From a virus: a stretch of 64,000 bases of DNA. The position numbers and the translations under genes are program-made. The notes beneath the pieces are model-generated. The model ran no database searches, was not told where the DNA came from, and worked only from the letters and a program-made list of their open reading frames with translations. The stretch is from positions 23,751 through 87,750 of the IMG/VR virus record IMGVR_UViG_3300022743_000002. One strand, given 5' to 3'. Position 1 is the first letter of the stretch. Every line of letters starts with the position of its first letter. Shown one piece after another: positions 3,001 to 59,249 of this stretch.

Positions 3001-4798
3001 TGCGCAGGTAAATGACGTCGGTAGTCACCTCGGTATGGCTGTGCTCGAATGCCGTGTTTGGCATGCGTTGCGCGCCAAGGAATTCCCCCTTGGTTAGCAG
3101 ACGCTCACGCAGGCTACGATTGGTCTTGCTGTCCATGATGCCGGTTGGCACCACCAGGGCGACAATGCCGCCGGGCTTGCACTTATCCAGCGCGGTATCG
3201 GTGAAGTAGGCCTCAGCCGTGCTGATATCTTTCTTGTCGTCCTTAGCCAGGAAGCCGCGCGGACCATAGGGCGGGTTTCCAATGACAACGTCGAACTGGC
3301 GATCGTCGGACGTTGCGAAGCGCTCCAGGCTGGCTGTATGGATTTCGTGGCGGTCGCCGTGCAGGGCCGTGGCTGCGGCCGCGCTGGTGGGATCGAGCTC
3401 CACGCCGGTGACCTTGAAGCCAGCCGGCGCAGTGTGCAGGAAAACGCCGGTAGCGCAGCTCGGCTCCAGGGCGGTACCGCCGGTGACGCCCAGAGCGGCG
3501 ATTGCCGTCCACATGCCGCGCGCCACTTCGGGATCCGTGTAGAACTCATTCAAGCTGTCGCCGCAGCCACCATTGCCGCTGTACTGGCGGAACAGAGCGC
3601 GGTCGGCGTCGCTGTACGGGCCACCGTCGGCCAAGCGCTTCACCACATCGGAATTGATGGCGAGGCGCTTTTTCTTGCTGGTGCCGGCCGGTACGCCGAA
3701 TGGCGCTGTGGGGTCGTGGGGCACTACGAGGACGGGCGCGGGCTTATTTTCGACTTCGGCAGGTTTTGCCGGCTGTGTTTGCACTTTTTCTGCAGAAACA
3801 GTCTTTATTTTCCCCGCCTTCGCATCACGCTTATCTCGCCGGCGCTTGAGCTCAGCGTCGATTGCGTCGACGTCAACTTGCATTGAGTTGATCAGCGCAG
3901 TATTGACGGATCCGCCATCCCAGCCCTTGCGTTTTTCGGCTGCGATCTTTTGCGCGCCATAGTTGGATGCGCGCTCCAGGTCTTTGGTGCCTTCGCGCAC
4001 CAGATCGGCAGCCGACAGATTGACAATGCGGTCGTAGTGTTCCCGCCACTCGCGGTGCGACCTATCCTGATCGGACTCATCAACCTCGCGGGCTGGCTTG
4101 ACCTCAGCCTTTGGCGGCTTGACCGGCTCGGGCTTTGCCGGCGCGCGATGCTTCAGCGTCATATCAGACGCCATGCGCCTCACCGTTGCGCCAACCTTGA
4201 AAGCCGTGCGAGGTGGAACCTCAAGCACTGAAGTGGTCACAAGGTCGTCGTATCTGTGCTCGCTCACGAGCGCCGTGATTTCTTTCCCGACCCTGTCCTT
4301 GAAGGTAACCACATCGCCAGGCTGGAACTTCGCCCTGGACGGTTTCGACTCCTGCACTGGCGCCTTGTCCGCAAACAGATCCGGCGTCTCGCCCTTCTCC
4401 GGCTCCTTTTCCGCCACGGCATCGAACATGGCCGACACTTCAGCGGGAGTTTTTCCGGCCAGCTTCGCCATTTCAGCGAATAGAGCCTGCTGCTGTCCTT
4501 CGGAAAGACCGGCGATTGTGGAACCAAGCAAGCGCAGGCCGCCATGGCGGGCGATGAATGCGTCCAGCTTGGAGCGCTTTACTGCCGGCGCTGGAGCATT
4601 GTGCTCGGCAAACATATCCAGCGTAGCGTGGTGCGCCGGCGCCGGTGCGCGCTTTACCGACACTTTCTGGATGCGCACATGGGCATCGACTAACGCGCCA
4701 TCTTTGCGGACATGGGCCGCAACGTGGACGGGCGCGTCAAACAGATTGAATTGGGATTTGGTAAAAAAGATGAGCATGTGACAGCCTTCTGGGAGCAT
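1..4798 (-). CDS. DarB-like N6-adenine methyltransferase / SNF2 helicase (3' end outside window)
   Basis: About 1599 codons are visible and the frame stays open to base 1. The N-terminal ~400 residues are low-complexity linkers. A methyltransferase domain follows, with NPPYGP near base 3270 (the N6-adenine catalytic NPPY motif). A SNF2-type helicase follows, with DVGLGKT (Walker A, near 1520), DEMHH (near 1010), LTATPT (near 870) and a motif VI-like RNGRGLRQGN near base 60. This order matches phage P1 DarB, an internal virion protein that protects injected DNA from restriction. I place the start at the ATG at 4798. It is in frame with the ATG at 4777 that has an AGAAGG ribosome site, and it lies exactly 6 nt after a late promoter -10. 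The N terminus after the second Met, MLIFFTKSQ, belongs to the junction peptide family shared with neighbouring head-associated proteins. Function is family inference. Confidence 0.9.
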   Translation of the reverse strand, partial: MLPEGCHMLIFFTKSQFNLFDAPVHVAAHVRKDGALVDAHVRIQKVSVKRAPAPAHHATLDMFAEHNAPAPAVKRSKLDAFIARHGGLRLLGSTIAGLSEGQQQALFAEMAKLAGKTPAEVSAMFDAVAEKEPEKGETPDLFADKAPVQESKPSRAKFQPGDVVTFKDRVGKEITALVSEHRYDDLVTTSVLEVPPRTAFKVGATVRRMASDMTLKHRAPAKPEPVKPPKAEVKPAREVDESDQDRSHREWREHYDRIVNLSAADLVREGTKDLERASNYGAQKIAAEKRKGWDGGSVNTALINSMQVDVDAIDAELKRRRDKRDAKAGKIKTVSAEKVQTQPAKPAEVENKPAPVLVVPHDPTAPFGVPAGTSKKKRLAINSDVVKRLADGGPYSDADRALFRQYSGNGGCGDSLNEFYTDPEVARGMWTAIAALGVTGGTALEPSCATGVFLHTAPAGFKVTGVELDPTSAAAATALHGDRHEIHTASLERFATSDDRQFDVVIGNPPYGPRGFLAKDDKKDISTAEAYFTDTALDKCKPGGIVALVVPTGIMDSKTNRSLRERLLTKGEFLGAQRMPNTAFEHSHTEVTTDVIYLRKRPDDVAGALGTVDQATLQKLGVWDAEFISGEYFTGRGASNVLGTMTEGWRAKAGMGNDITVEGSMDGVADAIADFTPESESAPAISVTMHHILGALGDDQKAKDRALSAAFRRPYANIAKVGDTKVVDGVTYVLQGDPPRWHSVDEYMQTAAISDAEALGVEIEMAKRGVVRDGLADRVRAYVEKHGNPNDSVDVKTAANVNKIIFNLLGAVNRKGELSDLVTGTVRKTESGFDATAQALALQHNGDTFDAAELADRLGKTVDEVEDQLAADQRYAFAVGGWTTMDAYLTGDLWLRLDAAKKELETNAHPELADKLRLQIERLEKTIDPKSLDDVDIQVNSAFIPTHILSEFMTWKLHDGPDANDWTKKERAIDVKFDSGVYFITGGNSYSTEYKALNAYLNRGTKDAKMMKEYRPVIDALNVEFKDWLCASAHRDAIEEKYNRSFRGFVAPEYSNEPIEVPGLNPNKSVRDWRWSSLRRSLATGKGIIADDVGLGKTLGGLLLARMAKVQGTTKRPVIVAPKSVLANWYSETQDWFPGSKVLTIGANFAKDKDGMLVGVDDTADERKRKYHDMTQNDYDFVIISEPSFEEIDITPERKEQYYSEDFWVQRGDKLDNVGDKRRKAIKENFEQSVAQREFSERTNAVYFEDLGIDMLIADEMHHQKNLYSARARFGDQPKFLGGQGLSNRALDFNMKARWIRETNGGKNVHGLTATPTKNSPLEVYSMLSHIAPEAFERIGIRNSEEFLDRFCEFVPDKVLSTKGDIEDATVVAGFKNMDELREIMSRYIDRRTAAEVGLKLPSRDDRMHLVDMTRAQQDAYAELRELAEESSGKKDATGDSHIFSIMDKMHKAALDLSILDPVRYAGAESPKYKELAKQCLEGAKEGGQIVFSELIESHDKIVAALVDAGFKKSEIGIINADVAKSSVKRQNIADKLNAGIFKVVIGNCTMAEGLNMQKTTTDIHHMDVPWDPATLQQRNGRGLRQGNNKEAVRIHTYL

Positions 4799-4804
4799 CC
4801 CCAG

Positions 4805-4819
4805 AGGGTAGCGTCACGA
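4805..4819 (-). promoter_or_regulatory. late promoter box (copy 1)
   Basis: On the minus strand this reads TCGTGACGCTACCCT, with TACCCT as the proposed -10. Six bases separate it from the ATG at 4798, so the predicted transcript begins at the start codon of the methyltransferase-helicase. It lies in the short gap after the polyvalent-protein stop. Confidence 0.7.
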
Positions 4820-4822
4820 TGC

Positions 4823-7153
4823 TCAGCGCGGCGCCAGGAATACTACAGGCATAGACTTTGTAATGTCTGGATTAGAGCCATCGAACTCGCCATTGTTGCC
4901 GATAGCCGATTTGATCTGCGTCGGATCAAAAACGACGTACTCAGCGGGGTAGTCACCGTTCTGGATGTGCCCGTAGCTCAAAATTACACCGTCGTGGCCC
5001 TTGGCGGCCAGTTCCTGCGTCCACTTCGCGGCAGCTTCATTGTCACCGCGGCGCTCGGCGAGCATCAGCCGCTGCTTGTCTTCCAGTGTGGCCTGATACG
5101 GGTTCTTTAGGCTCAGGTAGACAGGCATCACGTTGGGTGACGCGCCAGCCTTGAGGTTGGTGTAGCTGTTGGAGATTTCGGTGTCGTTGGTGAAGTAGAA
5201 GCCCTGACCGAGCCAGCCGTTGTCTTTTTTGTTGGCGTGGCCGTGCTTGAACTCAGCGAAGTCATCAGCGGTTCCGTGATAAACGATCAACGGCTTACCA
5301 TTCCCGTCAACCACTTTACTGCCTCGAAACCAGGTCTTGAACTTCGCGGTTTCGGTTGGATGCTGGAGCGCGGCCGGCTTCGGGGCCAGTCCAGCAGCCA
5401 CAGCCTGCAACGCCTTCCTGGGGTCTACAAACTCCAATTTGGTGCCCATGTCGGTGTGACCGACGCGGATCAGGCTCTTGATGTGCGGGCGCACGGCGTG
5501 TGACGTGATGCCGAACACCTCGGCGGCCGCTGGAATGAACCACTTGAGCCCAGATGAGCCAGCTTTCAGGCCTAGCCGATTTAGGTCCATATCCGTGACT
5601 TCGCCGCCGGCCATCAACCGATCGCGCATGGCGGCCAGCGCGGTGGCGCGATCGGCCTTGTTTTTGGCGGAACTCTCGCGGTTCGATAGCCACTGCTTGC
5701 CCTGCGCCGCAGCATCCTCCGGCTTCGCGTGGTACGCGCTCAAAATATCTTTGCCCGGGAGCTCGACCGCGTAGTGGCCAGCGATTAGCCCTTTGCCGCG
5801 CGACCAGGTTGTGCCCTCGGGGAAATCGGACAGCAGGTGGTCGTGCTCGTGCTCGCCCGCGGGCTCGGTGTGCTGGAGCTCGTCGGCGAACATATCTGGC
5901 GTGTGAGTTACCGCGTCCTTGCCGTTCAGCGGGCTCGGCCCCATCGGTTTGCCGCTCATGGGGCCGCCAAATAGGCTCATTTGCCCGGGCGTAGCATGCG
6001 GGCGCGCAGATCGACCCTGATACCCAGCGACGTTCACCAGACGACCGCCACGCAGGTACGGGCCAACATGGGATTTGAAGAACAAGACCATGCTCTTGGC
6101 GATGGTGGCGCCGCCGGCCGTACCTCGGCTTTCCACGCCGTTGTCGTCGTTGAACTTCTTGGCGACCTTGATCAACTCCATCGCCGGCATGCCGATCTTG
6201 ATGATGGGTAGCTGCTTGCCTTCGAGCGCAGCGACGGCCCAGCGGTGGTGACCGTCGAGCACGCGATTGTCGGACGACACCAGAATGCGGGTTTTGGCGT
6301 CGTACCGGCCCGCCCGCGTCTCGTCCGTCAGGTAGTCCATATTGGCGGCGTTGTAGGTGCCCTGGGTCGGCTTCAGTTCGGACGGGTTCACCGTGGCCTC
6401 GGTCACGGAAACACCTGACTCACGCAGCCCGTTCAAGAACTTTTCTTTCACGCCGCTCGGAACCTGGGGCATGTCATCCCGGCGGATGCCAAGCGACGGC
6501 TTGAACATTTCCGCGTACTGCTGGTGCCGCTGGCGCTTGTCTTCGTGGGCCTGCACCACAGTTCCATCGGAGCGGGTGTAGGTATCGACGTGGGCCTTCA
6601 GCAGCAGCGCCTTGATCATGGCAGGCTTGTCGATCGTGGCGCGCACCTTGGAAACGAACTCGGCCACCGGCATGGCGGTGATGGGGCCCAGGAAACGCGG
6701 GTCGGTGTAGTTGGCCAGAAATGCCTGCTTGGCGTCTTCCTCGCTATCGAACCCGGCCATGGCCTTGTCTTCATCGTAGCGGGTCCAGTCGCCATAGGTG
6801 TTCTGGTGCACCACGTAGACCATGGGCGCGTCCGGGTTCGGGCCCATGTAGATATCGACCGGGTCACCATCCACGCCCATGGATCCGACCACCTCGCCGT
6901 AGTCGTAGGACATGCGGATTTCCCAGGCCTCGCCGGACCGGTTCACGCCGCGGCGCACGGATCCCGCCGGATTCTCAATTGCCAGCGTCAGTCCCTGCCA
7001 TTCGATGCGTGGCTTCTTGTAGGCGCCCTCGCCGGCCTGGGCGGCACTGGGCTCGCCGGGGTTTCGGCGAACTTCGCCTTCCCCCAGGTCGGCAGGCTTG
7101 GCGGCGCCGCTCATTGCCTGTGTGACGGGGTGGGATTTGAGGAAAACGATCAC
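4823..7153 (-). CDS. polyvalent protein: pyrophosphatase-like + ParB-like + ADP-ribosyltransferase-like
   Basis: 776 codons, GTG start overlapping the upstream stop (GTGA). Residues about 40-170 look like the phage inorganic-pyrophosphatase-like domain (RMSYDYGEVVG, DGDPVDIYMG). Residues about 215-345 carry a ParB/Srx-like fold signature (SSDNRVLDGHHRWAVAAL). Residues about 600-770 resemble an ART-PolyVal ADP-ribosyltransferase (VYHGTADDFAEF, GQGFYFTND, ending with AEYVVFDPTQIKS). Such fusions are known as polyvalent proteins of phages and conjugative elements, thought to be delivered with the DNA. Module boundaries carry KSH/KSM junction peptides: MIVFLKSH at the start, KALLLKAH near 185, IAKSMVLFFKSH near 355 and ITKSMPVVFL at the end. 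Catalytic activity of any module is untested. Confidence 0.85.
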   Translation of the reverse strand: MIVFLKSHPVTQAMSGAAKPADLGEGEVRRNPGEPSAAQAGEGAYKKPRIEWQGLTLAIENPAGSVRRGVNRSGEAWEIRMSYDYGEVVGSMGVDGDPVDIYMGPNPDAPMVYVVHQNTYGDWTRYDEDKAMAGFDSEEDAKQAFLANYTDPRFLGPITAMPVAEFVSKVRATIDKPAMIKALLLKAHVDTYTRSDGTVVQAHEDKRQRHQQYAEMFKPSLGIRRDDMPQVPSGVKEKFLNGLRESGVSVTEATVNPSELKPTQGTYNAANMDYLTDETRAGRYDAKTRILVSSDNRVLDGHHRWAVAALEGKQLPIIKIGMPAMELIKVAKKFNDDNGVESRGTAGGATIAKSMVLFFKSHVGPYLRGGRLVNVAGYQGRSARPHATPGQMSLFGGPMSGKPMGPSPLNGKDAVTHTPDMFADELQHTEPAGEHEHDHLLSDFPEGTTWSRGKGLIAGHYAVELPGKDILSAYHAKPEDAAAQGKQWLSNRESSAKNKADRATALAAMRDRLMAGGEVTDMDLNRLGLKAGSSGLKWFIPAAAEVFGITSHAVRPHIKSLIRVGHTDMGTKLEFVDPRKALQAVAAGLAPKPAALQHPTETAKFKTWFRGSKVVDGNGKPLIVYHGTADDFAEFKHGHANKKDNGWLGQGFYFTNDTEISNSYTNLKAGASPNVMPVYLSLKNPYQATLEDKQRLMLAERRGDNEAAAKWTQELAAKGHDGVILSYGHIQNGDYPAEYVVFDPTQIKSAIGNNGEFDGSNPDITKSMPVVFLAPR

Positions 7154-8310
7154 TTTGGTTCCTTGCGCGGCATGGCCGCCAGCTTGTCACGCATCCATTG
7201 CCCGAACTCCACATCGTCACCTGGCCGGTCCTGAATCGTCGGAACCCAGCGCCCACGGCAATGCGGGTGCACCAGGCCGACTGGCACCTGCCACATCTCC
7301 TCGGGCTCGCGCTCCTTGAACACGGACCCCACGCGCTTGCGTGGGCTGGCGCTTCGCCCAACGTTGGTTTTGCCCGGCCAAATCATGGTCTCCGGGTCCT
7401 TGTCCTCGCGGGCGGCGTCCACGACTTCCATGACGCGGCCGTCGATTTTGCGACAGAACGCACAGGCGTTTTTGTACTGCTCGACACGCTTGACCTTGGT
7501 GCCCATGGGTAGAGACGACACGTAGCCGGCGGTCTGTGCTTCGCCGGCCTCGGTCACGGCGATCCGCCGCCAGTCGCGGTTCAGCGTGCCGAACTGGTCG
7601 AGGAGCTTGGTCTCCAGACTCGACGACGGTGCCGGCAGTCCGAGCTCGCGCTCCGTGACGTGCTCGGCAATGACGCCACGCATGCGGTGCCGGACGTCAT
7701 TGGCGATGTTGCGGACATTCTCGGCACAGCGGGTTTCAGCGTGAGCCATGGTAGCGCGCTGTGCGACGGTGCCGCCAAACGCCGCAATGGCCTCAGCGGC
7801 CGTGCTCGGCATGGCCGCCAGCAGCACGTCGGCCTGCTTGGCGTCGGCGGCCTCCATGTTGGCCTGCACGCGCCCCATGAGGCTGGCACGTGTCGACAAC
7901 CAGTCGGCCTCGGTGCGCATGTCGTCTGCAGGCAGGTAGCGCTGCACCGTCGCGTCGACGGCAAGCATGTGGTCTTCCAGCGTCCAATCGGACGGCGGGA
8001 GGTGTTCGAGGTAGATATGGACCAGAGAGAGCTCGCTTTGCGTCCATCGCTCCATCATGCCGCCAGGGCGAATGATGCGCTCGCCGGGCTTGTGTCGGAC
8101 GCCGGCGGTCCAGGCCTGAATCTCGGTGCGCACGGCGTCAAGGCGATCGAGACCGCGCTGCGTGAAAAGCTCGACCAGGCGACGCAGCAACGGGCTATCC
8201 ATTGGCGCCCAGATGCCGTCGTCGTGGTCATGCGTGGACTTGCACAGGAACTCCAGAGCGTCGTTTGTGACGCGCTCACCAAGTTCAATTAAATCGACGA
8301 ACAAAGACAT
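7150..8310 (-). CDS. Mu gpF-like head morphogenesis protein
   Basis: 386 residues. The C-terminal half matches the Mu F / SPP1 gp7 minor-head family: RIAVTEAGEAQTAGYV near 265, a Cys pair in ACAFCRKIDG near 295, and the diagnostic VHPHCRGRW near 355. The N-terminal half is helical. These proteins sit at or near the portal and are needed for head assembly. The start ATG lies exactly 6 nt after a late promoter -10 and has no Shine-Dalgarno. The stop overlaps the GTG of the polyvalent gene, so the two form one unit. Confidence 0.88.
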   Translation of the reverse strand: MSLFVDLIELGERVTNDALEFLCKSTHDHDDGIWAPMDSPLLRRLVELFTQRGLDRLDAVRTEIQAWTAGVRHKPGERIIRPGGMMERWTQSELSLVHIYLEHLPPSDWTLEDHMLAVDATVQRYLPADDMRTEADWLSTRASLMGRVQANMEAADAKQADVLLAAMPSTAAEAIAAFGGTVAQRATMAHAETRCAENVRNIANDVRHRMRGVIAEHVTERELGLPAPSSSLETKLLDQFGTLNRDWRRIAVTEAGEAQTAGYVSSLPMGTKVKRVEQYKNACAFCRKIDGRVMEVVDAAREDKDPETMIWPGKTNVGRSASPRKRVGSVFKEREPEEMWQVPVGLVHPHCRGRWVPTIQDRPGDDVEFGQWMRDKLAAMPRKEPK

Positions 8311-8316: not shown

Positions 8317-8331
8317 AGTATGCGATCACGA
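8317..8331 (-). promoter_or_regulatory. late promoter box (copy 2)
   Basis: Minus-strand TCGTGATCGCATACT, with CATACT as -10. Six bases (GCCAGC) precede the ATG at 8310, which predicts a leaderless mRNA for the head morphogenesis gene. Confidence 0.72.
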
Positions 8332-8508: not shown

Positions 8509-8523
8509 AGTGTGCAGTCACGA
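8509..8523 (-). promoter_or_regulatory. late promoter box (copy 3)
   Basis: Minus-strand TCGTGACTGCACACT, with CACACT as -10. It begins immediately after the U-tract of the terminator at 8523-8550, a back-to-back terminator/promoter joint. No start codon lies 6 nt downstream. Confidence 0.6.
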
Positions 8524-9648: not shown

Positions 9649-11230
9649 GCCCCTTCAAATTCCACAAGATCATTCTAGGCGTTGGCATAGATTTAGTCAA
9701 ATTTGATGATTCATTCTGTTGTTGTTTCTCACCAGCCTTAGCTTTCTCCCAGGCATCACCGTAGAGAGACTCCTGCTCTTTCATGGCGGCGGCGTGCGTC
9801 TCACGGTCCTTGGCGTCCCATTTGCTTGTATCTGAGCCAACGCCATTCTCGCGATATTTACCTTCTATTGATCGCGTTGTCTCGTATGGCTTGTGGCCTT
9901 TTTCCTTGGCCAGCGTCATTGGCTTCACGTGCACCTGCATCTCGGCGAGCATGCCGTTGGGTAGCCGCATGATCATGTTGATATCGCGGTAGCCGCCCGG
10001 CAATGGCTTGACCAGGTTGTTCTTGGGCTTCTGCGCCAGCTCGATGCCGGCCGCCTTGAGCTCGGCGAGCACCTTCGGGATTTGGGTGACGCCAGGCACT
10101 GCGATTGTGGCGCGCACCATGTCGCGCAGCTGCGACCAGTCGCCGTCGTAGTCCTGGGCGACCTTCTCCTTGGCGCGCTTCTCGCCCTTGAGCGGGCCCA
10201 TGAACAGGTAGCCGCGATCGTCGTCCCAGTGCTCGGGCAGCATGTAGTCGGTGTCGGACAGGTCGGCCGGATTGCGGCCTTCCTTCTCGGCGTTGATCTT
10301 CTCCTCGTGCTGGGCGTGGTCCAGCGACTGCGGGCGCTTGCCGGTCACCAGACCAAGATTCTGCGCGACCTTGCTGAGCATATCGCTGTACTGCTTCAGG
10401 CCTTCCTCGCCCTTGGACTTCAGTTCATCCCATGACTGGACAGGCTGATTGACCTTGGTCGGCAGCTTATCGAGCTCTGAGGTATCGAATAGCGCGCGAG
10501 CGATCCCCTCGGCGCCGTCGGGGGCCGGCTTTGGCGTTCCCGGCGCGTCTACCTGGTTGGGTTGCGTCTCCTGGTGCGGACTCGCGTCCGGCTTACCTTC
10601 GCCGCCCCAGTGGTGGGTAATTTTGTCATGCGTTACAAGGTGTTGGCCACCGGCGCTGTCCCGGACACGCACGCCGTCCTTGCCGGATGCCGTTACCTCG
10701 CCGTGCCCCTTGTGCTCGCCATTGGCAAAGCCGACGTGCTGGCCGCGCTGGGCCGGCGGGCTACCCTGGTCAGTGCTGACCCACTTGGTAGTTTGAACGC
10801 CATTCTTATCAGTGATTACCTTCTTTTGCAGACCGGGTGCACCAGCGTAGGTTCCCGGCGCTGACGCCTTCATAAATAGCATGACGGGCCGCGTGTGCCC
10901 CATTGATTTAGCGACCATTGGGTCTTCCTTGGATTCGTTTGGTATTGCCACAAATCGACGCCGGCCGGACTTGTCCTCGACCAGCATGCCATCCTCTCCT
11001 TGATCGACGACGGCGTATTTTTGCAGGGCCCGGGTCTTGTGACCAAGGACCTTGTCCCATCGGACCGGGTGATGGCCGCCGTCAATCTCGACGGTTACGC
11101 CGTGCTTTCCGTGCGCCTTGACCAAGCCGGTGCGCGGTTGTCCGCGGTGGTGCACATACAGATGGTCGCCCACCTCGACGTCGTGGCGCGGCTCCGGCTC
11201 CGGGCGCGGCTTAGGCTTCTGGTAGGTCAT
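9632..11230 (-). CDS. RelA/SpoT synthetase-like domain protein of the head region
   Basis: 532 residues. Residues 15-60 look like a KOW/SH3-like barrel (VGDHLYVHHRGQPRTGLV). Residues about 185-240 are a Gly/Pro-rich linker. Residues about 340-470 match the RelA/SpoT nucleotidyltransferase pattern: LKGEKRAKEK, then LRDMVRATI (the Asp used for metal), PGGYRDIN (compare GYRSLH) and LAEMQVHVKPM (compare ExQIRT). The canonical His after GYR is Asn-like here. KSM junctions occur near residue 108 (VAKSMGHTRPVMLFMKAS) and at the C terminus (LTKSMPTPRMILW). Start ATG overlaps the portal stop. Whether it makes (p)ppGpp, another pyrophosphorylated nucleotide or modifies RNA cannot be told from sequence. 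Confidence 0.75.
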   Translation of the reverse strand: MTYQKPKPRPEPEPRHDVEVGDHLYVHHRGQPRTGLVKAHGKHGVTVEIDGGHHPVRWDKVLGHKTRALQKYAVVDQGEDGMLVEDKSGRRRFVAIPNESKEDPMVAKSMGHTRPVMLFMKASAPGTYAGAPGLQKKVITDKNGVQTTKWVSTDQGSPPAQRGQHVGFANGEHKGHGEVTASGKDGVRVRDSAGGQHLVTHDKITHHWGGEGKPDASPHQETQPNQVDAPGTPKPAPDGAEGIARALFDTSELDKLPTKVNQPVQSWDELKSKGEEGLKQYSDMLSKVAQNLGLVTGKRPQSLDHAQHEEKINAEKEGRNPADLSDTDYMLPEHWDDDRGYLFMGPLKGEKRAKEKVAQDYDGDWSQLRDMVRATIAVPGVTQIPKVLAELKAAGIELAQKPKNNLVKPLPGGYRDINMIMRLPNGMLAEMQVHVKPMTLAKEKGHKPYETTRSIEGKYRENGVGSDTSKWDAKDRETHAAAMKEQESLYGDAWEKAKAGEKQQQNESSNLTKSMPTPRMILWNLKGRENGN

Positions 11231-12972
11231 GATTGAATTCTGAACACCGGCAGGCCAAACGACTTGGCTATGTCCTGCTGATCATCTCCGGGCCTCTCCG
11301 TAGCCCCAGCATCATCGGGCGCCCCGAAGTCTTGCCCGCCCTGATCGTCACCAAAATCCTGATCGCCGCCGCCGTCATCGCCGTCATCGGTCGACTGCCC
11401 AGGCTCAGCGCCAGGCTGGCCGTAGTCCTCTTGCTGCGGCATTGCCTCTTGTTGCCAGGCGCCAACCAGCGAGGGATTCAATGGAGCGTCACCCCACTTA
11501 CCGTCGGCCTTGTCGACGCCGTCCTCGGCTCGGATCTCGTTGACGGTGCGCGTCATTTTTTTGCGCTCCCAGATCGTCTTTTCGTCTTCCTCGTCCAGGC
11601 CGGTGAACTGGAATTCGTACTTGTCACTGAACTCGCCAATGACGTACTCGCTCAGCGTGGACTCGAAATAGCTCAGCAGGGGGCGCAGGCCCTTGTCTTT
11701 GCTGTTGACGATCTTCTCCTCGGTGTCGTCTCCGCTCAGCGATGACGTTCCGGACGTGAAGCTCTCAAAATTGATTTCCTCGGGCGCAATGCCGTAGATC
11801 GCGCAGATGATGGATGACAAGAACGTCATCCACTTGGCGAACATGATTTCGTTGGCGGCGTTACCGAATTCCGTGAAGTCGGCTTTCGACTCCTGATCCT
11901 TGGACACCATGACGGGCAGCGTCCAGGCGTTATTGACGCCCTTGACCATGCCGTTCCAGTAGCGCTTAAAGGCGGCAACATCCTCGTCGCTGTAGTTTCC
12001 GTACAGGTTCAGCATGCCCTTGGGTATGGCGTTGCTGTCGAAAAATTTGGTGTTGTAGGTGAAGGCGTTCAGAAAGCCCGTCACCACGCGGATAAGCAGT
12101 TCCGTCTCGGACAGTCCGTAGCCGCCAGCAAGCACGTCGGTGCGTGGGTTGCGCGGCACATACACCAGGTCGTCATAGGTGTAGGCGCTGCGGATCTGGC
12201 CTTGCACGACCTGGAGGGCGAAAATCTCGTCTTCGCCTTGGTAGCCGTCTTCGCTGCACAACCGAATGGTGGCTCCGTCGACGGCGTACATGCCGTCCAG
12301 GCCGAGCGACTTGTCGCGCTTCCACTCGGTCTCAATCGGTGCGCTGTCCATGGTGAGGCTGTCGCGCACCAGCTTCATCATGAAGTTTTGGAAGTTGTCG
12401 CGCTTCAGGCGCAGGCGCTGGCGGGGCTTGGTCTCCCAGCCGCTGTTGGTCACGAATGACTCCAGCAGCTTAATGGTGGCCTTTTCGTTTTCGTCGATGT
12501 TCTCCAGCTTTTCCTTGCTGGCGATCCTGAAACCCGACCCCTTGCCACCCTTCTGCGGCCGGCAAAACCTGGCCACCTGGCGCTGGCGCGTCATTATGAC
12601 GGCGTTCAAAATCGGCGTTTGGTCCACCATGGCGCGCATGGCATCAAACGTGAATTGGCCGGGTCGCTCGAACCAGTCGCCGTTGATGTTGATCTGCAGG
12701 TCGTCCAGCCAGACCGACTGCATGCCGGGCTTCTTGTCTTTGATGGCATTCGACGGGAACGGGATGACGTTCTGCTTTTGCAGCGACTTCGCCATGGCCT
12801 GATCGTCCAGGTCACGGTTGATGTAGTCAATGATGGGCTGAATGTTCGCCGCCGGTATCAGGTCCGACAACGCCTTGGGCATGCTGGATTTTTGAAGCTC
12901 CGCCATGGCTTCAGTCCGCTCGTCGGCGGGCGCACGTGGATCAGCGAGTATGGCGCGGGCAGCATCAGTCAT
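11227..12972 (-). CDS. phage portal protein
   Basis: 581 residues, usual size for portals. Portal-family features include SVWLDDLQININGDWFERPG near 85, ILNAVIMTRQRQVARF near 120, and a clip/wing region with FTGLDEEDEKTIWERKKMTR near 475. The tail is a disordered Gly/Asp/Gln-rich segment (about 515-565) that ends in DIAKSFGLPVFRIQS, a variant of the KSM junction seen in the neighbouring proteins. Its role is the dodecameric DNA gate of the head. First gene of the portal to HD operon. The start ATG is 6 nt from a late promoter -10 and lacks a clear ribosome site. Confidence 0.92.
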   Translation of the reverse strand: MTDAARAILADPRAPADERTEAMAELQKSSMPKALSDLIPAANIQPIIDYINRDLDDQAMAKSLQKQNVIPFPSNAIKDKKPGMQSVWLDDLQININGDWFERPGQFTFDAMRAMVDQTPILNAVIMTRQRQVARFCRPQKGGKGSGFRIASKEKLENIDENEKATIKLLESFVTNSGWETKPRQRLRLKRDNFQNFMMKLVRDSLTMDSAPIETEWKRDKSLGLDGMYAVDGATIRLCSEDGYQGEDEIFALQVVQGQIRSAYTYDDLVYVPRNPRTDVLAGGYGLSETELLIRVVTGFLNAFTYNTKFFDSNAIPKGMLNLYGNYSDEDVAAFKRYWNGMVKGVNNAWTLPVMVSKDQESKADFTEFGNAANEIMFAKWMTFLSSIICAIYGIAPEEINFESFTSGTSSLSGDDTEEKIVNSKDKGLRPLLSYFESTLSEYVIGEFSDKYEFQFTGLDEEDEKTIWERKKMTRTVNEIRAEDGVDKADGKWGDAPLNPSLVGAWQQEAMPQQEDYGQPGAEPGQSTDDGDDGGGDQDFGDDQGGQDFGAPDDAGATERPGDDQQDIAKSFGLPVFRIQS

Positions 12973-12978: not shown

Positions 12979-12993
12979 AGGGTAACGTCACGA
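12979..12993 (-). promoter_or_regulatory. late promoter box (copy 4)
   Basis: Minus-strand TCGTGACGTTACCCT, with TACCCT as -10 and six bases (TCAGGC) before the portal ATG. It is back to back with the plus-strand promoter at 13013-13042. Confidence 0.75.
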
Positions 12994-16670: not shown

Positions 16671-17039
16671 TTATCGGGCGCCAGTTACGCGCTTTTCACC
16701 GTCGTATTTTGCCTTTGCGTCCTTCAGCGGCTGCTGGCGCTTCTTTAGCTCCATGTGCGCATAGTGCACCTCGTCGATGTACTGTCCGCCCTTTTTGTCG
16801 TTGCCCATTGCGTAGGCGTGCTTGGCCGCCTCTTTGGCATCCTTGATCACGTAATGGAGCTGGTCTTCGCTGTAGGTCGCAAATTTGCCCTGGGTCCGGC
16901 TGTGCCAGTTTTCCTCGTCGCGCCAGTCTTTTTTTGGTTTGGCGGCCTGCCGCTTGTCGTCATGCGCACCCACAACGGAGCCGTCCTTGCGCGTGAACGT
17001 ATCAATGTGCGACTTGAAAAATAGGGCGAGTGCTTTCAT
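16671..17039 (-). CDS. 122-aa protein with KSH/DG-AH-DKR leader module
   Basis: Starts MKALALFFKSH followed by TFTRKDGSVVGAHDDKRQ, nearly the same as the internal module near residue 185 of the polyvalent protein (TYTRSDGTVVQAHEDKRQ). The remainder is Lys/His-rich and helical, with no recognised domain. It has its own late promoter 6 nt from the ATG and sits between terminase and the rdgC block. The shared leader suggests it is another member of the head-associated set. Confidence 0.8.
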   Translation of the reverse strand: MKALALFFKSHIDTFTRKDGSVVGAHDDKRQAAKPKKDWRDEENWHSRTQGKFATYSEDQLHYVIKDAKEAAKHAYAMGNDKKGGQYIDEVHYAHMELKKRQQPLKDAKAKYDGEKRVTGAR

Positions 17040-17045
17040 TCCCGC

Positions 17046-17060
17046 ATTTTGCGATCACGA
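17046..17060 (-). promoter_or_regulatory. late promoter box (copy 5)
   Basis: Minus-strand TCGTGATCGCAAAAT, with CAAAAT as -10 and six bases (GCGGGA) before the ATG at 17039. It overlaps the last codons of the large terminase gene. Confidence 0.72.
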
Positions 17061-19175: not shown

Positions 19176-19178
19176 GCG

Positions 19179-46447: not shown

Positions 46448-46457
46448 AGGAAATCCT

Positions 46458-46793
46458 CTATTGAGGCGGAGGAACAATTTTCACGTCTTTGATCACACTC
46501 AGGCCGCTGCTAACAGCTCGACCAAGAACAAAAAGGCCACCAAATAGACCCGCATACCATTCAGTGATTTTGTCGTGAAGTACAAGCGTAACAAATCCCC
46601 ACGACATTAAAGATAGCGCCGTCATGTACCCAATTTTCTCGACGCTTATTTTTCCGGTGACGCTATCCAGCAGGCACTGCTGCAGGTTAAATGAGTTATC
46701 TGACAGGTGCCAGTACCAGACGACCGCAATCACCAAGATGACCAGCACAAGTAGCGAAATTGACGATGGGTCGATTGACTTTAGTAATTCCAT
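46458..46793 (-). CDS. holin candidate A (111 aa, 3 membrane spans)
   Basis: Hydrophobic spans about 14-32, 60-78 and 85-103, with a basic/Pro C-terminal tail (KDVKIVPPPQ). Directly precedes the endolysin, the usual holin place. No family recognised. Confidence 0.65.
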   Translation of the reverse strand: MELLKSIDPSSISLLVLVILVIAVVWYWHLSDNSFNLQQCLLDSVTGKISVEKIGYMTALSLMSWGFVTLVLHDKITEWYAGLFGGLFVLGRAVSSGLSVIKDVKIVPPPQ

Positions 46794-47774: not shown

Positions 47775-47789
47775 ATTATTCCGTCACGA
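47775..47789 (-). promoter_or_regulatory. late promoter box (copy 8) for lysis genes
   Basis: Minus-strand TCGTGACGGAATAAT, with AATAAT as -10. Predicted start near 47768 leaves a ~26-base leader before ATG 47742, unlike the leaderless copies. Confidence 0.65.
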
Positions 47790-51429: not shown

Positions 51430-54400
51430 TTACAAAACAATAACGCGCAGATCGCGCACACGCGGACGCGCAGCAGTAGTGCCGTTCAGCACCAGCTTAA
51501 TCTGGACGGTCAATTCGTTGATACCGGTCGCGGTGTGCTTGAACTCGGTAAATCCGTCGTCTGCAGGCGTGGTTACCGGCGATGTTATTGCGATCCAGGT
51601 GTCGCCTACGTCGGGACCCTTGTAATACACACCCACAGTTGCGCCACTCGGTACTACAGCCTCATAAATCACCTTGATCGTCACCGCGGACCCAGCCGGA
51701 ATAGCTCGACTCACGTAGTCGCCGCTCGTAGCAACCACGCCAGCCACAAGCTGTGACCCAGGGTGCAAGATTGGCGAAAAATCATTGGTGCCGTGCAGGT
51801 TAGCCGTCACCCCCACGTTTCCTGTAATGGCGGCGGCAAGCTGTACCGGCTGGCCGTCCGAAACCGTCACCACGGATGCGTCGGGAAGCGTAAGCGTGTA
51901 GTCAACACTGGTATCGCTCGCCGGGCGATCCGCGTATGACATTAGCAACAAATCAGTTACCCCGGTAACCGCCACGTTACCGAGATTAACCGCGTGACTT
52001 GTTTCCGTGTAGCTCGCGCTGAGTAAGCGGAAGGCCAGGTCCCGATCCTGGTGAGCCGTCCATGTACTTGCGTTGCTGCTGCTAAGGAGCACGCCGACCG
52101 TGTAGGGCTGGCTGGTGATCCATCGCTGAGCCACTGCATCGTACTTGCCAAGCTCAGCGACGGCCAGCGCTCCATCGGCGTCTAGGCAGAGCACAACGAT
52201 GGCGTACTCAACGCCACCAAGAAGCAGTACGGGCGCGCCAAATTGGACGCGGGTGTGGGTCCCGCCAACCAAGGCGGAGTTTGCGGCAATATGCGCCTCA
52301 GCAACAATTGTCTGATTTGGGATGCCGGCCGTGGTTTCGCGAATTTGAACGCTGGCCATGGTCGTTGGTGCCGTCGTAAACCACAAATCTACTGCCGATA
52401 TTTGAACATTTTGCTGAATTGAGAATGTCTGGGCAATAGGGTCGACCCTAACGTAAGGGTTAGTTGGCGGCGGCGGCGGCGGCGGCGAATTCCAGCGCGT
52501 TTCAGTGACAATGGTCTCTCGTTGCCATGTCTGGCGCTCCAGTGTCCCCTGGCCAGAGAATGTTGCCTCGCCTCGCCTCTGAAAGAGGACGTCTCTCGCA
52601 ATAACAGTTTTGGACCCGGATGGGATGCCCGCAGGGATCGTGAAGGATCCTGTGACGATGCCGCCAGCGGAAGCAACGGGCGCGGTTGGCGATATTGGCA
52701 CAACAATGCCATCGAACATTATGCTGTCCAATGTCTCGCCAGGCGCGAACCCGGAAATGGAGAAGTTGACTGCTATTGGACGCAATGTCTCAATTGCAGA
52801 AAAACTCGTCGATAGCAGAGCCTTTCGCTTTGCCAAGGATACTGACGATTGATTTCCGGATCCAACAATACGGAATCGACGTGTAATGGCGCTGGACCAG
52901 TTGGTCTCGACAACCGTCCAGCGGTCCACGGCTGGGGATAGCTTTATGTTCGCCGGGAGCGGAATAAACGCCATGTATGGGTTTATCTTCATGTTTCCCG
53001 TGCGCAGGCTTTGCTCCAGCGTGATTACGCCAGAGTAGCTGCACGACGTTGGCCCGGTGACGTCTGACGTCATCTGTTTGATGGTGGCCGAAATTGGCAG
53101 CAACAACTCACCAAGCACTATGGCTGCAGTCTGACTTGTGCCCGCATCCCGCTGAGTGTCGTCTAAGAATGGGTCGGTAAATAGCCCCTTTTTTGTCCCA
53201 CCTTCGCGGGTATGAATGTCTGACTCCAGTCGCTGCTGTGCAATCAGCTGCATAACCAGGTCAAACCGTCCATCGATACTAGCCAAAACAGGCATTGGAA
53301 CAACACGGACGCCGTCGTTTACAACCGAGCGGTTGGCGTCCCATGTTTGGTAGACGCTGGCGAGCGGCAACAGGTCGCCAGGTACGCTTGGTGACTGAGG
53401 ATTGAACTCGGAAGCCACACCAATCAGCCAAACAGTATCTCCGTCGGAGTCCAGGCACAGCCGATCGATGCGCGGCAGCATCTGGCTGTAGCTCGCCAAT
53501 ATCAGGGTTCCAACAACAGCCCCGGTCACAGTGAAACCACCGGAATCTACGGCGGTCGGAGTTACGGTAGTGATGTACTGGTACTTGACGGTGTAAGTAG
53601 ATCCCGGGGCGGGCTCAGCGCCAGCTGGGGACCAATTCACCTTACTTGAAGTCAGCAGGTAGTCGGTTGTTGCCGCATAGGTTGTTGCGCCCTGCTTGAC
53701 CTCCAGGATGGTCAAAACCGATGTGTCGGGAAGCGGGTCCTGTGCTCCGGTGGTAACTCCGTGGGTGAGCGTTACCGTCTTTTCCGCCGTAATAGTCACC
53801 GACGTGATGTTTGTTCCTGGCGCGCGATCAAAGTCAAATCGCTGCGCAGCGGTCGTGGCGCTCAGCTGAGGCTCGCTGGTGATCGCCTTCAGGTCAGGCG
53901 TCGCCGATAGAAATACTCGCCGCGAAGTTCGCAGCTCGATGCCATTACCATAAACGCGGGCACGCCCCTCAGAGATGGAGTAAACCTGGTCGCCGGTGTC
54001 ATCCGGCATCTGCTTCACATTCAGCCCCGACACCACATACGTGCCGCCAGCGCTATCTCGATCGTATCGCGCCAAGGCCTGAGACACGGCGTCCAGATTT
54101 GGCGGCGCCTCCTTGGCGCCAAGCACAGCATTGGTCACCGAATAGACGGGGAAAAACTCGCCTGCGCCGCCGTCGCCGCTCCAGCCCCACTGGGAATGAG
54201 TCTTCAACCGCTCGGCGCCGGTCTCGTTGTAATTCCTGGTGCCGGTTGCGGGGTCGCGCAACGCAGGATCCTCCACCGCAGTAACGACGCTATCAATCAA
54301 GCGCACACCGATCGAAACAACGCCCGTCGTTGGAATTGTGAACGCGGAAGGCTGCACGCCGCGCACAGCCCCGCGCAGATAGATCGCGCCGGACGCGCAC

Positions 54401-54621
54401 CGCACAGCACCGGACGCCTCGTCCACAATTACCGAGCAGTCGCGAATAATGTCGCCATCCTTGAACAGAGAGTCGGCGATACCCCGCAATCGATTTGCTG
54501 AGGTCTTCTGAATCTCGTTCAACTCGGAGGACTGAAGTCCGCGACCGGCAATGAATAGATGCTCCTCGTACTCTTTTGTGGAATCCGAGCGGTCGAAATA
54601 GTTTGCTGGCAATGCTGTCAT
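51430..54621 (-). CDS. large baseplate/tail protein, DUF4815 type
   Basis: 1063 residues. N-terminal NYFDRSDSTKEYEEHLF and GRGLQSSELNEIQ fit DUF4815. A Pro run (NSPPPPPPPTNPYV near 700) separates a C-terminal beta-sandwich part. Likely a baseplate wedge or fibre-anchoring protein. A late box sits 9 bases ahead of the start. Confidence 0.82.
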   Translation of the reverse strand: MTALPANYFDRSDSTKEYEEHLFIAGRGLQSSELNEIQKTSANRLRGIADSLFKDGDIIRDCSVIVDEASGAVRCASGAIYLRGAVRGVQPSAFTIPTTGVVSIGVRLIDSVVTAVEDPALRDPATGTRNYNETGAERLKTHSQWGWSGDGGAGEFFPVYSVTNAVLGAKEAPPNLDAVSQALARYDRDSAGGTYVVSGLNVKQMPDDTGDQVYSISEGRARVYGNGIELRTSRRVFLSATPDLKAITSEPQLSATTAAQRFDFDRAPGTNITSVTITAEKTVTLTHGVTTGAQDPLPDTSVLTILEVKQGATTYAATTDYLLTSSKVNWSPAGAEPAPGSTYTVKYQYITTVTPTAVDSGGFTVTGAVVGTLILASYSQMLPRIDRLCLDSDGDTVWLIGVASEFNPQSPSVPGDLLPLASVYQTWDANRSVVNDGVRVVPMPVLASIDGRFDLVMQLIAQQRLESDIHTREGGTKKGLFTDPFLDDTQRDAGTSQTAAIVLGELLLPISATIKQMTSDVTGPTSCSYSGVITLEQSLRTGNMKINPYMAFIPLPANIKLSPAVDRWTVVETNWSSAITRRFRIVGSGNQSSVSLAKRKALLSTSFSAIETLRPIAVNFSISGFAPGETLDSIMFDGIVVPISPTAPVASAGGIVTGSFTIPAGIPSGSKTVIARDVLFQRRGEATFSGQGTLERQTWQRETIVTETRWNSPPPPPPPTNPYVRVDPIAQTFSIQQNVQISAVDLWFTTAPTTMASVQIRETTAGIPNQTIVAEAHIAANSALVGGTHTRVQFGAPVLLLGGVEYAIVVLCLDADGALAVAELGKYDAVAQRWITSQPYTVGVLLSSSNASTWTAHQDRDLAFRLLSASYTETSHAVNLGNVAVTGVTDLLLMSYADRPASDTSVDYTLTLPDASVVTVSDGQPVQLAAAITGNVGVTANLHGTNDFSPILHPGSQLVAGVVATSGDYVSRAIPAGSAVTIKVIYEAVVPSGATVGVYYKGPDVGDTWIAITSPVTTPADDGFTEFKHTATGINELTVQIKLVLNGTTAARPRVRDLRVIVL

Positions 54622-54628: not shown

Positions 54629-55114
54629 TCAGAATGTGATCACGACTTCAAAGCTCTCGCGAATGGCTGGGGAGCGATAAATCGGAGCAAGGTGTTCAAG
54701 GTGTAGTAGGCGACCCTGAGTAAGGACGTTACCCGGGACGAAATACTGCTGCCCACCTGGAAGTCCGGCGTTCATCGTGGAATTGGAAAAAATGGCAATC
54801 TCACGAATAACGGAACTACTGGCGTCAGCGAAGTCGAACGACGTGCGGACGTACAAATTGCTGGTTGGTGAAACCGAGCGCGAAAATGTTCCGGTCGGAA
54901 GGACAATGTCGCCGGATACGTTAGGGGTCACAAACGCCACCTCTGTGGCAGTGCGGCGCCCAATCTCAGCCAGCAGAGCCGTGGCGTTGACGTCTTCAGG
55001 GACTTCGGTGGGCGTCATCCAAGCGCCGTTGCCGGTACCCCACGCCAGATGCAGCGGGCGCGCTGCCACTGACTCAGCGATAACTACGCGGCCAGATTTT
55101 GTGAGGATGGGCAT
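54629..55114 (-). CDS. tail/baseplate protein (161 aa)
   Basis: Starts MPILTKSGRVVIAESVAARP, then SFDFADASSSVIREIAIF. This pattern is shared by small baseplate proteins next to gp25 and J genes. Strong AAGGAG ribosome site. Exact role unknown. Confidence 0.75.
   Translation of the reverse strand: MPILTKSGRVVIAESVAARPLHLAWGTGNGAWMTPTEVPEDVNATALLAEIGRRTATEVAFVTPNVSGDIVLPTGTFSRSVSPTSNLYVRTSFDFADASSSVIREIAIFSNSTMNAGLPGGQQYFVPGNVLTQGRLLHLEHLAPIYRSPAIRESFEVVITF
54631..54645 (-). promoter_or_regulatory. late promoter box (copy 9)
   Basis: Minus-strand TCGTGATCACATTCT, with CATTCT as -10, 9 bases from ATG 54621; it is embedded in the last codons of the preceding gene. Confidence 0.55.
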
Positions 55115-55135: not shown

Positions 55136-55150
55136 ATTGTTGCATCACGA
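55136..55150 (-). promoter_or_regulatory. late promoter box (copy 10)
   Basis: Minus-strand TCGTGATGCAACAAT, with AACAAT as -10. Predicted start about 55129 gives a short leader that contains AAGGAG, so this copy is not leaderless. Confidence 0.65.
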
Positions 55151-57438: not shown

Positions 57439-58059
57439 TTAGCCGCCCTGAATAATGTCAACCACGTCACCCTCAATTGCGGTGGCGGTGGCTTGGATTC
57501 TAACGCTGTCACCCGTTACCTCGGCGACAGACCCGTCGACCGCCTTCACCCGGTAATCGGCTTTTAGTGCCGCCTTGATGTAGTCGGCCCCCAGGCGCGC
57601 GGCGGTCGGACCATTGACGCGGCCAAGCAGTCGATGGTGCATGCTGCCGTACTCCGGGTGACGCATGAGCTGGCCGCGAGGTGTCGATACGCGGTGGCTC
57701 AGCTGCTGGCGGAGATTGTCGGCGCCAGTGAGCACGTCGAAGTCACCACCTTCGGTGGCTTGCAGCTGCTTACCGACCAGATTGCAGTCGCGCTCATAGG
57801 CGTGCCCGCGGCCCGATGCGCCGTTTCCCTGCCATCCGCCAGGCGCAGGAACCTTGAGAAAGTCGCCGGACAGGACGACTCCGGCCGCAATGAGGCGCGG
57901 ATCGTCAGTGATGTACGGCGCCACCAAGCCGTTGACCCATACCAACTCAGGCCAGCGATTTGCGTCCCCGAGCTCGCGATCGGCGACCATCGCCAGCGTA
58001 TCGCCGCGATGTGTTGCCGCCAGGCGGAACGATGGCAGTTTGCGCTCGAACTGACTCAT
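57439..58059 (-). CDS. LysM-like + gpW/gp25 baseplate protein
   Basis: 206 residues. N-terminal LysM-like ATHRGDTLAMVADRELGDA (about 14-70), then a gp25 core: DFDVLTGADNLRQQLSHRVS, GQLMRHPEYGSM, and a beta end. Fusion of a tail-spike-binding LysM fold with the gp25 wedge. Confidence 0.86.
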   Translation of the reverse strand: MSQFERKLPSFRLAATHRGDTLAMVADRELGDANRWPELVWVNGLVAPYITDDPRLIAAGVVLSGDFLKVPAPGGWQGNGASGRGHAYERDCNLVGKQLQATEGGDFDVLTGADNLRQQLSHRVSTPRGQLMRHPEYGSMHHRLLGRVNGPTAARLGADYIKAALKADYRVKAVDGSVAEVTGDSVRIQATATAIEGDVVDIIQGG

Positions 58060-59228
58060 ATCGTGACCACCATTCCGCCCATGATGTTGTTGAGATGGCG
58101 GCCTATTTCAGCCGCCGGCATCGGGTTTAGGACGGAGTCCGATTTGATGATCGTCTCCGCGCTTCTTATGGCGGCCCCGCTCAAAGTGACGGGCTGGCTG
58201 TCCTGCGGGTTGATAAGAGCGAAGACGTTTTGATCACTGAAAGCGCTAGGCATGCGCCCGCCGGTCGTGCTGGAACAATTCGATGCGCCGTACAGCCCGG
58301 TGTAATCCTCGTAGATTGCACTCGGACGCAAAGCGTTGGAAAAGATGCAGACAACCTCATTGAACGCGGCACCAACGCTAACAAAGGCTGCTTTGGCAGC
58401 GGTCGCAATACCAACAATCGACGCAAACGTCCGGAACACCTCGCGCCCAACCTGCGCGATCGTCTTGGCGATGCCAACGACGTACCCAACAGCGCCGCCA
58501 ATGAACCCAGTGACGCCGTTCGCTACAGACTGAATCTGCCGTAGAAACTTGACCGCCATGTTCACGTAGCCCGTCACAACTCCAGCGATTGATCGCAGCG
58601 CAGACAAAATTCCGCCCTGAAGACCAACACTCACCACCTCCAGTCTACCCAGGGCCCTATCCAGGGCGTTTAGTCCGGCCGTCGCATTCCCCGTGTCCGG
58701 GAAAAACTGAGATAGGCCGCCATCAACAGACGTACTCACGGCCTGCATGACAATGTTGTAGCGAAACAGTAACGGGCTACTCTTGGATCGCCTTAGATTG
58801 AATTGCATAGGCACAACTTGCCACGCGATGCTGTCAAGCAAATCAACAAAAAGCAACTTCACGCCAGCCGGATCGTGTCCGTAGTCAATGGCTTGTTGAA
58901 TTTTTGCTGGGTAGTCGTGGACTACCAGCTGATTCAGAGCCTCAAACGACTGGAATCCATCAAGACCAAGTCCTGGCTTGTATCCCCAGCCGGTGTGCCC
59001 ACTGATTGTTACGGATGGCAACCCTTCGCCGAAGTGATCGACCCATCCCTGCGCATCGCGGCCGAGCGTTTGGTGCACAGCCGCCCGCTGAGGCTCTCCG
59101 CGCGTCAAATCTTCTGGCCGAATTGGAAGGTAAACCGGGGAGCTGAGCGCTCCACGATTGTCCAGCACAAAGCTGATCGGCCGAATATCCGCCTTTTGAC
59201 TTATGTGAGGTCCGTATCGGTCGTCCAT
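58056..59228 (-). CDS. baseplate hub-like / DUF4157-free tail protein (390 aa)
   Basis: N-terminal region about 10-170 is a mixed fold (VDHFGEGLPSVTISGHTGWG, YPAKIQQAIDYGHDPAGV), typical of tail proteins that bind the tube end. The Ala/Val-rich middle 200-300 is hydrophobic and resembles a membrane-interacting or tail-tip segment. The end includes ALINPQDSQPVTL. Position between gp25 and gpV suits a hub or adaptor. No firm family. Confidence 0.68.
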   Translation of the reverse strand: MDDRYGPHISQKADIRPISFVLDNRGALSSPVYLPIRPEDLTRGEPQRAAVHQTLGRDAQGWVDHFGEGLPSVTISGHTGWGYKPGLGLDGFQSFEALNQLVVHDYPAKIQQAIDYGHDPAGVKLLFVDLLDSIAWQVVPMQFNLRRSKSSPLLFRYNIVMQAVSTSVDGGLSQFFPDTGNATAGLNALDRALGRLEVVSVGLQGGILSALRSIAGVVTGYVNMAVKFLRQIQSVANGVTGFIGGAVGYVVGIAKTIAQVGREVFRTFASIVGIATAAKAAFVSVGAAFNEVVCIFSNALRPSAIYEDYTGLYGASNCSSTTGGRMPSAFSDQNVFALINPQDSQPVTLSGAAIRSAETIIKSDSVLNPMPAAEIGRHLNNIMGGMVVTI

Positions 59229-59234
59229 GCCGCC

Positions 59235-59249
59235 ATTCTGGCATCACGA
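59235..59249 (-). promoter_or_regulatory. late promoter box (copy 11)
   Basis: Minus-strand TCGTGATGCCAGAAT, with CAGAAT as -10 and six bases (GGCGGC) before ATG 59228, again predicting a leaderless start. Confidence 0.7.

Follow-up and report, generated by a model that had tools for sequence, protein, structure and literature searches.

The window analyzed here, the 64,000-nt stretch at bases 23,751-87,750 of the 87,750-nt virus record IMGVR_UViG_3300022743_000002, carries a recurrent DNA box on its minus strand. To judge from its sequence context, this box very probably marks a class of late promoters with leaderless starts, the RNA beginning at the A of the start codon. The window contained ten exact matches to TCGTGAYNNNANNMT, every one of them on its minus strand; dinucleotide shuffles gave a mean of 0.37 and a maximum of 2. 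Together with the variant GCGTGACACCACACT at 22797, in which the first base differs, these make up the eleven minus-strand sites listed in an earlier sequence-only reading of this DNA. An ATG exactly 6 nt past the last T of the box, reported there for seven sites (4805, 8317, 12979, 17046, 19863, 22797, and 59235), was found at all seven. The sites and the genes behind them are as follows.

4805..4819, minus strand: predicted late promoter TCGTGACGCTACCCT, predicted +1 at the A of ATG 4798-4796; the gene behind it encodes a DarB-like SNF2/N6-methylase protein (g20, ~2200 aa) and runs off the window
8317..8331, minus strand: predicted late promoter TCGTGATCGCATACT, ATG 8310-8308, of a 386-aa portal-cluster gene (7150..8310; motif at orthologue starts in 13/19)
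8509..8523, minus strand: motif copy with no near ATG, possibly a second, upstream promoter of the 7150..8310 operon, or a small RNA
12979..12993, minus strand: predicted late promoter TCGTGACGTTACCCT, leaderless ATG 12972 of the portal gene 11227..12972 (Phage_portal)
17046..17060, minus strand: predicted late promoter TCGTGATCGCAAAAT, leaderless ATG 17039 of a 122-aa gene (16671..17039)
19863..19877, minus strand: predicted late promoter TCGTGACGCTATCAT, leaderless ATG 19856 of gene 19179..19856, directly upstream of the large terminase gene 17055..19175 (motif at orthologue starts in 9/13)
22797..22811, minus strand: predicted variant late promoter GCGTGACACCACACT, leaderless ATG 22790 of the PhageMetallopep gene 22266..22790
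47775..47789, minus strand: predicted late promoter TCGTGACGGAATAAT, leadered, first ATG 32 nt on (47742); it precedes a small-gene/predicted lysis cluster from 47742 to 45830, in which gene 45830..46477 is predicted to be endolysin-like by similarity to the Dolphis endolysin gp37
54631..54645, minus strand: predicted late promoter TCGTGATCACATTCT, ATG 9 nt on (54621), gene 51430..54621 (DUF4815)
55136..55150, minus strand: predicted late promoter TCGTGATGCAACAAT, leadered, with an AAGGAG Shine-Dalgarno and ATG 55114 (21 nt on) of gene 54629..55114, whose orthologues have the motif at the start in 4/4, leaderless in 0/4
59235..59249, minus strand: predicted late promoter TCGTGATGCCAGAAT, leaderless ATG 59228 of the baseplate gene 58056..59228

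The earlier list of genes ahead of the boxes requires one correction: the "helicase" is the DarB-like SNF2-helicase/N6-methylase polyprotein, not a replicative helicase. In the whole record, TCGTGAYNNNANNMT had 13 exact matches on the minus strand and none on the plus strand (reversed control, 0). The relaxed core CGTGAYNNNANNNT occurred 17 times, 10 of them with an ATG at exactly 6 nt (hereafter ATG-6 sites), and this spaced pattern, CGTGAYNNNANNNT-N6-ATG, gave a mean of 0.08 and a maximum of 1 in shuffles. The comparison with a shuffled background, suggested as a check by the earlier reading, favored the motif in both window and record. Beyond the window, ATG-6 sites lie at record positions 16455 and 21587 and, on the plus strand, at 4395. 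The last of these serves the one late-cluster gene that is inverted, and a minus-strand copy at 4385 faces it; the box thus tracks gene direction even there. When all hexamers at all gaps upstream of ANNNT were enumerated without bias in this genome and seven others, TCGTGA at a gap of 3 ranked first in this genome and in 4/7 of the others (on top in G000, G003, Dolphis, G010, and G004).

Distribution of the box in related phages and host genomes

The large terminase (window 17055-19175) retrieved 60 viral loci with 44-83% protein identity, and a DNA comparison retrieved Pseudomonas phages Jeremy and Dolphis. CGTGAYNNNANNNT-N6-ATG was present in all 23 larger records found through the terminase (2-10 copies each, ~125 in total, mostly on one strand), and the reversed spaced pattern was found in none of them. 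When the ATG condition was dropped, TCGTGAYNNNANNNT occurred in 9-22 copies in each of 21 genomes (reversed controls, 0-1). In a de novo ranking of hexamers at fixed distances, performed on each genome separately, TCGTGA at -21 from the start codon ranked first or close to first in most genomes. The scan of the complete genome and related phages proposed in the sequence-only reading was positive for the motif together with its ATG spacing.

The relatives belong to a widespread family of myovirus-type proteobacterial phages with genomes of roughly 85-98 kb; several are temperate, with an integrase annotated in Jeremy and in Dolphis. The box was also found at the starts of the same genes throughout this family. 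It stood at the start of all orthologues of the head (capsid) protease (19/19) and the baseplate gene g74 (18/18), in every case with a predicted leaderless ATG, and of the portal gene (19/19, 16 leaderless) and the SNF2/methylase gene g20 (13/13, 4 leaderless). The corresponding counts were 18/19 for g5, 12/13 for g18, and 4/4 for g70, none of the last being leaderless. Since the genes headed by a box have virion, packaging, predicted lysis, and injected-protein functions, we infer late expression. The promoter role assigned to the box in the earlier reading is consistent with its position at orthologous late genes of relatives, with its location on the late-gene strand, and with the -10 bases A-11 and T-7 described below.

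In 13 host genomes (~84 Mb), the strict pattern gave 25 hits, 23 of which fell into four compact clusters, each confined to one strand, on contigs that carry prophages (Geminicoccus, Microvirga, Steroidobacter, and Mesorhizobium). Host chromosomes are thus nearly free of the motif outside prophages: it is no host signal, and it is common to alpha-, beta-, and gamma-proteobacterial phages and prophages. The earlier reading had suggested a phage activator or an altered polymerase: both observations favor a phage factor, and an altered polymerase found no support.

Predicted promoter architecture and start point

Spacing was analyzed in 290 different sites from about 20 phages, and the consensus was derived from 92 aligned ATG-6 sites. 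The ATG lay at 6 nt in 98 of the 290 sites and at 7 nt in 26, with ~4 per other position and a minor second rise at 26-29 nt. The consensus element, GTCGTGAC at -22 to -15, is a short inverted repeat, GTC-GT-GAC, with its end three bases ahead of the -10 hexamer. Upstream of the hexamer, the alignment comprised G-22 (84%), T-21 (85%), CGTGA, C-15 (79%), and G-14 (66%), and was followed by A-11, M-8, T-7, C-1 (71%), and A+1, the A of ATG; the search pattern had fixed CGTGA, A-11, T-7, and ATG, and left free G-22, T-21, C-15 over T, G-14, and C-1. A-11 and T-7 are the bases of an ordinary sigma70 -10 element. On the other hand, no column exceeded 0.2 bits at -45 to -26, where a TTGACA-like -35 hexamer with a 16-18 bp spacer would lie, in agreement with the earlier statement that no site fits a sigma70 -35. 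The TG of an extended -10 was likewise absent at -15/-14 (C 79%/T 21% at -15 and G 66% at -14).

Signals of transcription start were also found at sites without a near ATG (n=121): C at position 6 after the T in 45%, and A at position 7 in 37%. CA steps at these sites peaked at the predicted start (18% and 12%, compared with ~7% elsewhere), which provides evidence for the start point that is independent of the ATG. A Shine-Dalgarno-like word was present at only 1/122 ATG-6 sites; in this genome, the counts were 0/8 for ATG-6 genes and 34/69 for other genes. This scarcity is partly caused by the promoter bases that are fixed in that stretch. Three features, namely the distance from the -10, the peak in ATG distances, and the CA signal, predict a transcript that starts at the start codon. 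The proposal of leaderless starts in the earlier reading was supported by the ATG peak at 6-7 nt and the near absence of Shine-Dalgarno words, but 4/11 sites in the window (8509, 47775, 54631, and 55136) are not at distance 6, and "leaderless" therefore fits only a subset. The GenBank starts in Dolphis agree for three genes (portal 4551, protease 8005, and gp117 84125), while leaderless ATGs would shift the starts of gp15 and gp25 upstream. In the present record, the leaderless ATG at 16457 (minus strand) predicts a head protease of 303 aa, 19 aa longer than that given by the open reading frame caller.

At leadered sites in relatives, inverted repeats often started right after the -10 T, with a far end that was a Shine-Dalgarno, a T run, or an ATG (e.g., L296-L300 in G042, L014 28081, and L165-L169 in G010). 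Stems of at least 6 bp were found at 20% of leadered sites and in 4.5% of shuffles. Initiation at +7 would drop the 5' arm, so that read-through RNA would fold and late RNA would not; alternatively, the repeat may be an upstream terminator. Folding of read-through RNA only is known for the T4 lysozyme mRNA.

The g40/g40b cassette and other candidate readers of the box

Two adjacent genes of the window, predicted to encode zinc-binding proteins, were examined as the source of a factor acting at the box.

23781..24305, minus strand: g40, candidate activator gene, 174 aa, two cysteine clusters
23494..23775, minus strand: g40b, candidate partner, 93 aa, HxCxxC ... CxxC ... CxCG ... C, directly downstream of g40

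In g40, C18, C30, C48, C51, C74, C90, and C93 were invariant and C77 nearly so, and a block CVSCxNR..E...GxNAKGxxP was conserved; no match to any Pfam, NCBIfam, PHROG, or PDB family was found. Weak similarity to many such domains suggests that g40b is a zinc ribbon. A comparison of gene content among near-complete relatives revealed that all universally present genes are for virion or morphogenesis functions, except g40 and g40b. All near-complete relatives carried g40; even G004 and G014, in which no homologues of primase-helicase and helicase are recognizable, keep the cassette. g40b was not seen in G006 by a cysteine-pattern scan. In Dolphis, the g40 homologue lies at 66,689-67,210, and that of g40b is the next open reading frame downstream. 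The next most widespread non-virion gene, g57, was missing from the complete G004. In 18/18 genomes, no box was located upstream of g40, which always lay on the late-gene strand; this would suit a regulator whose synthesis precedes that of the late proteins.

Searches with g40 retrieved 80 viral and 23 bacterial loci, and ATG-6 sites were carried by 23/27 records reached in this way. These included records with g40 and the motif but without a detectable terminase match (G040 and G044) or with only a C-terminal one (G028, G034, and G036). Cultured carriers of g40 were Bordetella phage PHB04, Pseudomonas phages Touem01, Dolphis, and Jeremy, Aeromonas phage ST4, Yersinia phage fHe-Yen8-01, Enterobacter phage phiT5282EW, and Morganella phage Mecenats66; in a further check of five of these phages, ATG-6 sites were seen in four (all but Mecenats66), and the P1 control had none.

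Several observations weigh against g40/g40b as the reader of the box. Mecenats66 has g40, yet no ATG-6 match, and the g40-bearing G032 (L285-L289) and G041 (L293-L295) lack the motif, although G032 has a 53%-identical terminase and a 36% g40. A replacement box was sought in G032 and G041, and nothing clear was found; promoter/activator co-evolution may be visible there. Several bacterial genomes with distant g40 homologues, among them Cupriavidus with one that is 48% identical, had no strict ATG-6 sites. The g40b homologue of fHe-Yen8-01 (L303 1537-1881) is annotated as "particle associated protein", a label that could reflect detection in virions and for which a search gave no paper; g40b may accordingly be a virion component. 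Foldseek gave no significant PDB match for g40 or g40b, and the proposed link from cassette to promoter is drawn from gene content. The best hits for the fold of g40b, Rpb9/C11 zinc ribbons at E 1-3, were not taken as evidence. Loss of the HAG or NAKG residues, otherwise invariant in g40, was considered as a mark of motif-free phages, and fitted G032 (HCG, NSRG) and G041 (HNG, NRKG); since L258 (QHHT) still has motif copies, the idea was dropped.

Other readers of the box were also sought. No phage sigma factor (a protein with sigma70 region 2) was detected in 17 phages, with control genomes positive, and the 0/17 for a T7-like single-subunit RNA polymerase came with a control that gave no signal either. 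A homologue of P1 Lpa was absent by phmmer against all open reading frames of 19 phages, up to E 10; PHROG 1704 (P1 Lpa) was found in 0/17, with the control silent. A "TraR" annotation in Dolphis prompted a search for a DksA/TraR domain, and none was found at threshold. An AraC-type gene (window 15737-16582) was rejected as the box reader because it was present in only 8/23 motif-bearing records.

Interpretation and comparison with known systems

These results suggest a late promoter class with leaderless starts, with the cassette as the best candidate activator, which is probably the correct combined explanation; for g40/g40b as the activator itself, the balance is favorable to a smaller degree. 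The promoters would retain a host sigma70-type -10 (A-11 and T-7), the -35 being replaced by the phage-specific GTCGTGAC at -22 to -15. A phage-made factor would read GTCGTGAC and so enable the RNA polymerase of the host to open them during the late phase of infection, and RNA would start at a CA step 7 (sometimes 8) bases past T-7. At about two fifths of the promoters, the start A would be the A of ATG, giving a leaderless late mRNA; the remaining promoters would produce a leadered mRNA, in which a Shine-Dalgarno may or may not be present. g40, by itself or together with g40b, would bind GTCGTGAC immediately upstream of the -10 and stabilize the host sigma70 polymerase such that -35 contact is unneeded, much as P1 Lpa acts at its -22 boxes. 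Only tentatively do we extend this to a new class of two-protein activators that read -22 to -15 and make the -35 dispensable for sigma70 polymerases of alpha-, beta-, and gamma-proteobacteria, with leaderless translation as a second, translational switch.

The same promoters may be served by another activator (a divergent small helix-turn-helix protein, an AraC-type regulator, or a host factor like SspA), with g40/g40b having a virion, nucleoid, or takeover function. We regard this as rather unlikely. Small helix-turn-helix proteins diverge fast and may escape detection, an AraC-family gene is the terminase neighbor here and occurs in 8/23 records, a g40b homologue is labeled particle-associated in one phage, and P1 late promoters require host SspA besides Lpa (PMC8201110). 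However, AraC is missing from 15/23 motif-bearing records, the small helix-turn-helix gene g51 was detected in just 11/18, and a reader from the host only would not explain the scarcity of the motif in host chromosomes and its conservation over alpha, beta, and gamma hosts. That the box is instead a stoperator-like operator, bound by a phage repressor that silences late genes in the prophage, appears improbable. The annotated integrases of Jeremy and Dolphis, the g40 homologues in bacterial contigs, and the short dyad within GTCGTGAC speak for such a role, and some phages, such as mycobacteriophage L5, use many directional operators. However, the box is at a fixed distance from the -10 in every site, a position and spacing typical of a promoter element; furthermore, unaided host polymerase should be weak at promoters with no -35, and repression alone would not require the loss of -35 at all late promoters.

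An RNA-level translation signal ahead of start codons, as might be suggested by the location just before ATG in 98 + 26 of 290 sites, is highly improbable: more than half of the sites have an ATG farther off or none near, the invariant positions are those of a DNA -10 element, and CA enrichment persists without a near ATG. Chance or shared descent of a few sites without function has a negligible probability. Related phages do share sequence through ancestry, but column statistics revealed that flanking bases vary freely among genomes while the box stays, in relatives with terminase proteins of the above identity and with at most one reversed match per genome. This possibility was refuted by the scan of relatives, the de novo hexamers, the enumeration, and the ATG spacing.

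Among known systems, P1 was the most similar in layout: about ten late promoters in a ~90 kb myovirus genome, one phage-coded factor, and a short inverted repeat just upstream of the -10 hexamer with no -35. The P1 late boxes (GenBank features) are mostly AAGTGACTT followed by 4 nt and TANAAT, and both systems show GTGAC or a near form. On the other hand, AAGTGACTT is centered at -21 and GTCGTGAC at -18.5, ~2.5 bp nearer the -10; P1 late mRNAs carry leaders, and P1 has no match to the ATG-6 pattern. Given the similar layout but different sequence and register and the lack of an Lpa homologue, we consider the present system P1-like in its working and, on the tested features, not a member of the P1 class. 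The earlier description of TCGTGA as unlike known elements requires qualification, since P1 has a comparable short repeat by the -10 and no -35.

In T4 middle promoters (MotA/AsiA), a phage element likewise replaces the -35 upstream of a sigma70 -10; the MotA box is centered near -30, whereas the element here lies at -22 to -15. Appropriation of sigma4 has been reviewed, and the middle/late promoters of Thermus phage P23-45 are transcribed by host polymerase in a -35-independent manner (PMC7403470). Late transcription through host polymerase without -35 dependence would be common to P23-45 and the present phages, but P23-45 promoters are of the extended -10 type (TG motif), and their factor gp39 prevents recognition of the -35 instead of recognizing a box of its own; here, -15/-14 are C/T and mostly G, so that there is no TGn motif. 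The lambda cI mRNA is the classic leaderless phage mRNA. As in known leaderless phage mRNAs, an AUG at the 5' end would be the translation start; in contrast, the leaderless starts predicted here are built into a late regulon as a whole and recur at the same structural genes in different members of the family. Phage transcripts have been described as "often leaderless" (PMC5312081). A literature search for the box sequence gave nothing relevant. No description of this promoter class was found either; the search had limited reach into subscription papers, and an earlier description is possible. The Mecenats66 paper, the sole in-depth comparison of these phages that was found, does not mention promoters.

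If correct, this interpretation maps ~10-20 late promoters per genome from sequence alone, corrects gene starts (e.g., 19 more residues on the head protease), and defines a two-gene candidate for a new class of sigma70 activator with cultured laboratory models, in a family that spans Pseudomonas, Bordetella, Aeromonas, Yersinia, Enterobacter, and Morganella phages and alpha-/beta-proteobacterial prophages. It would also describe a phage regulon with leaderless starts conserved at the same structural genes, and a natural system for how leaderless mRNAs compete late in infection.

Large late polyproteins are encoded at window 1-7153 (minus strand) and record 17033-21589. They comprise the DarB-like N6-methylase + SNF2 helicase (~2200 aa), a 1518-aa helicase-domain protein and, at window 4823-7153, a polyvalent protein with inorganic pyrophosphatase and ADP-ribosyltransferase, and probably enter the host together with the DNA. 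In gene 21480..22121, a ~160-bp part (window 21511-21674) was 80-84% identical to Klebsiella, Pseudomonas, and Acidovorax phages, two records of which label the counterpart as an anti-CRISPR protein; the protein matches PHROG 322 (unknown function).

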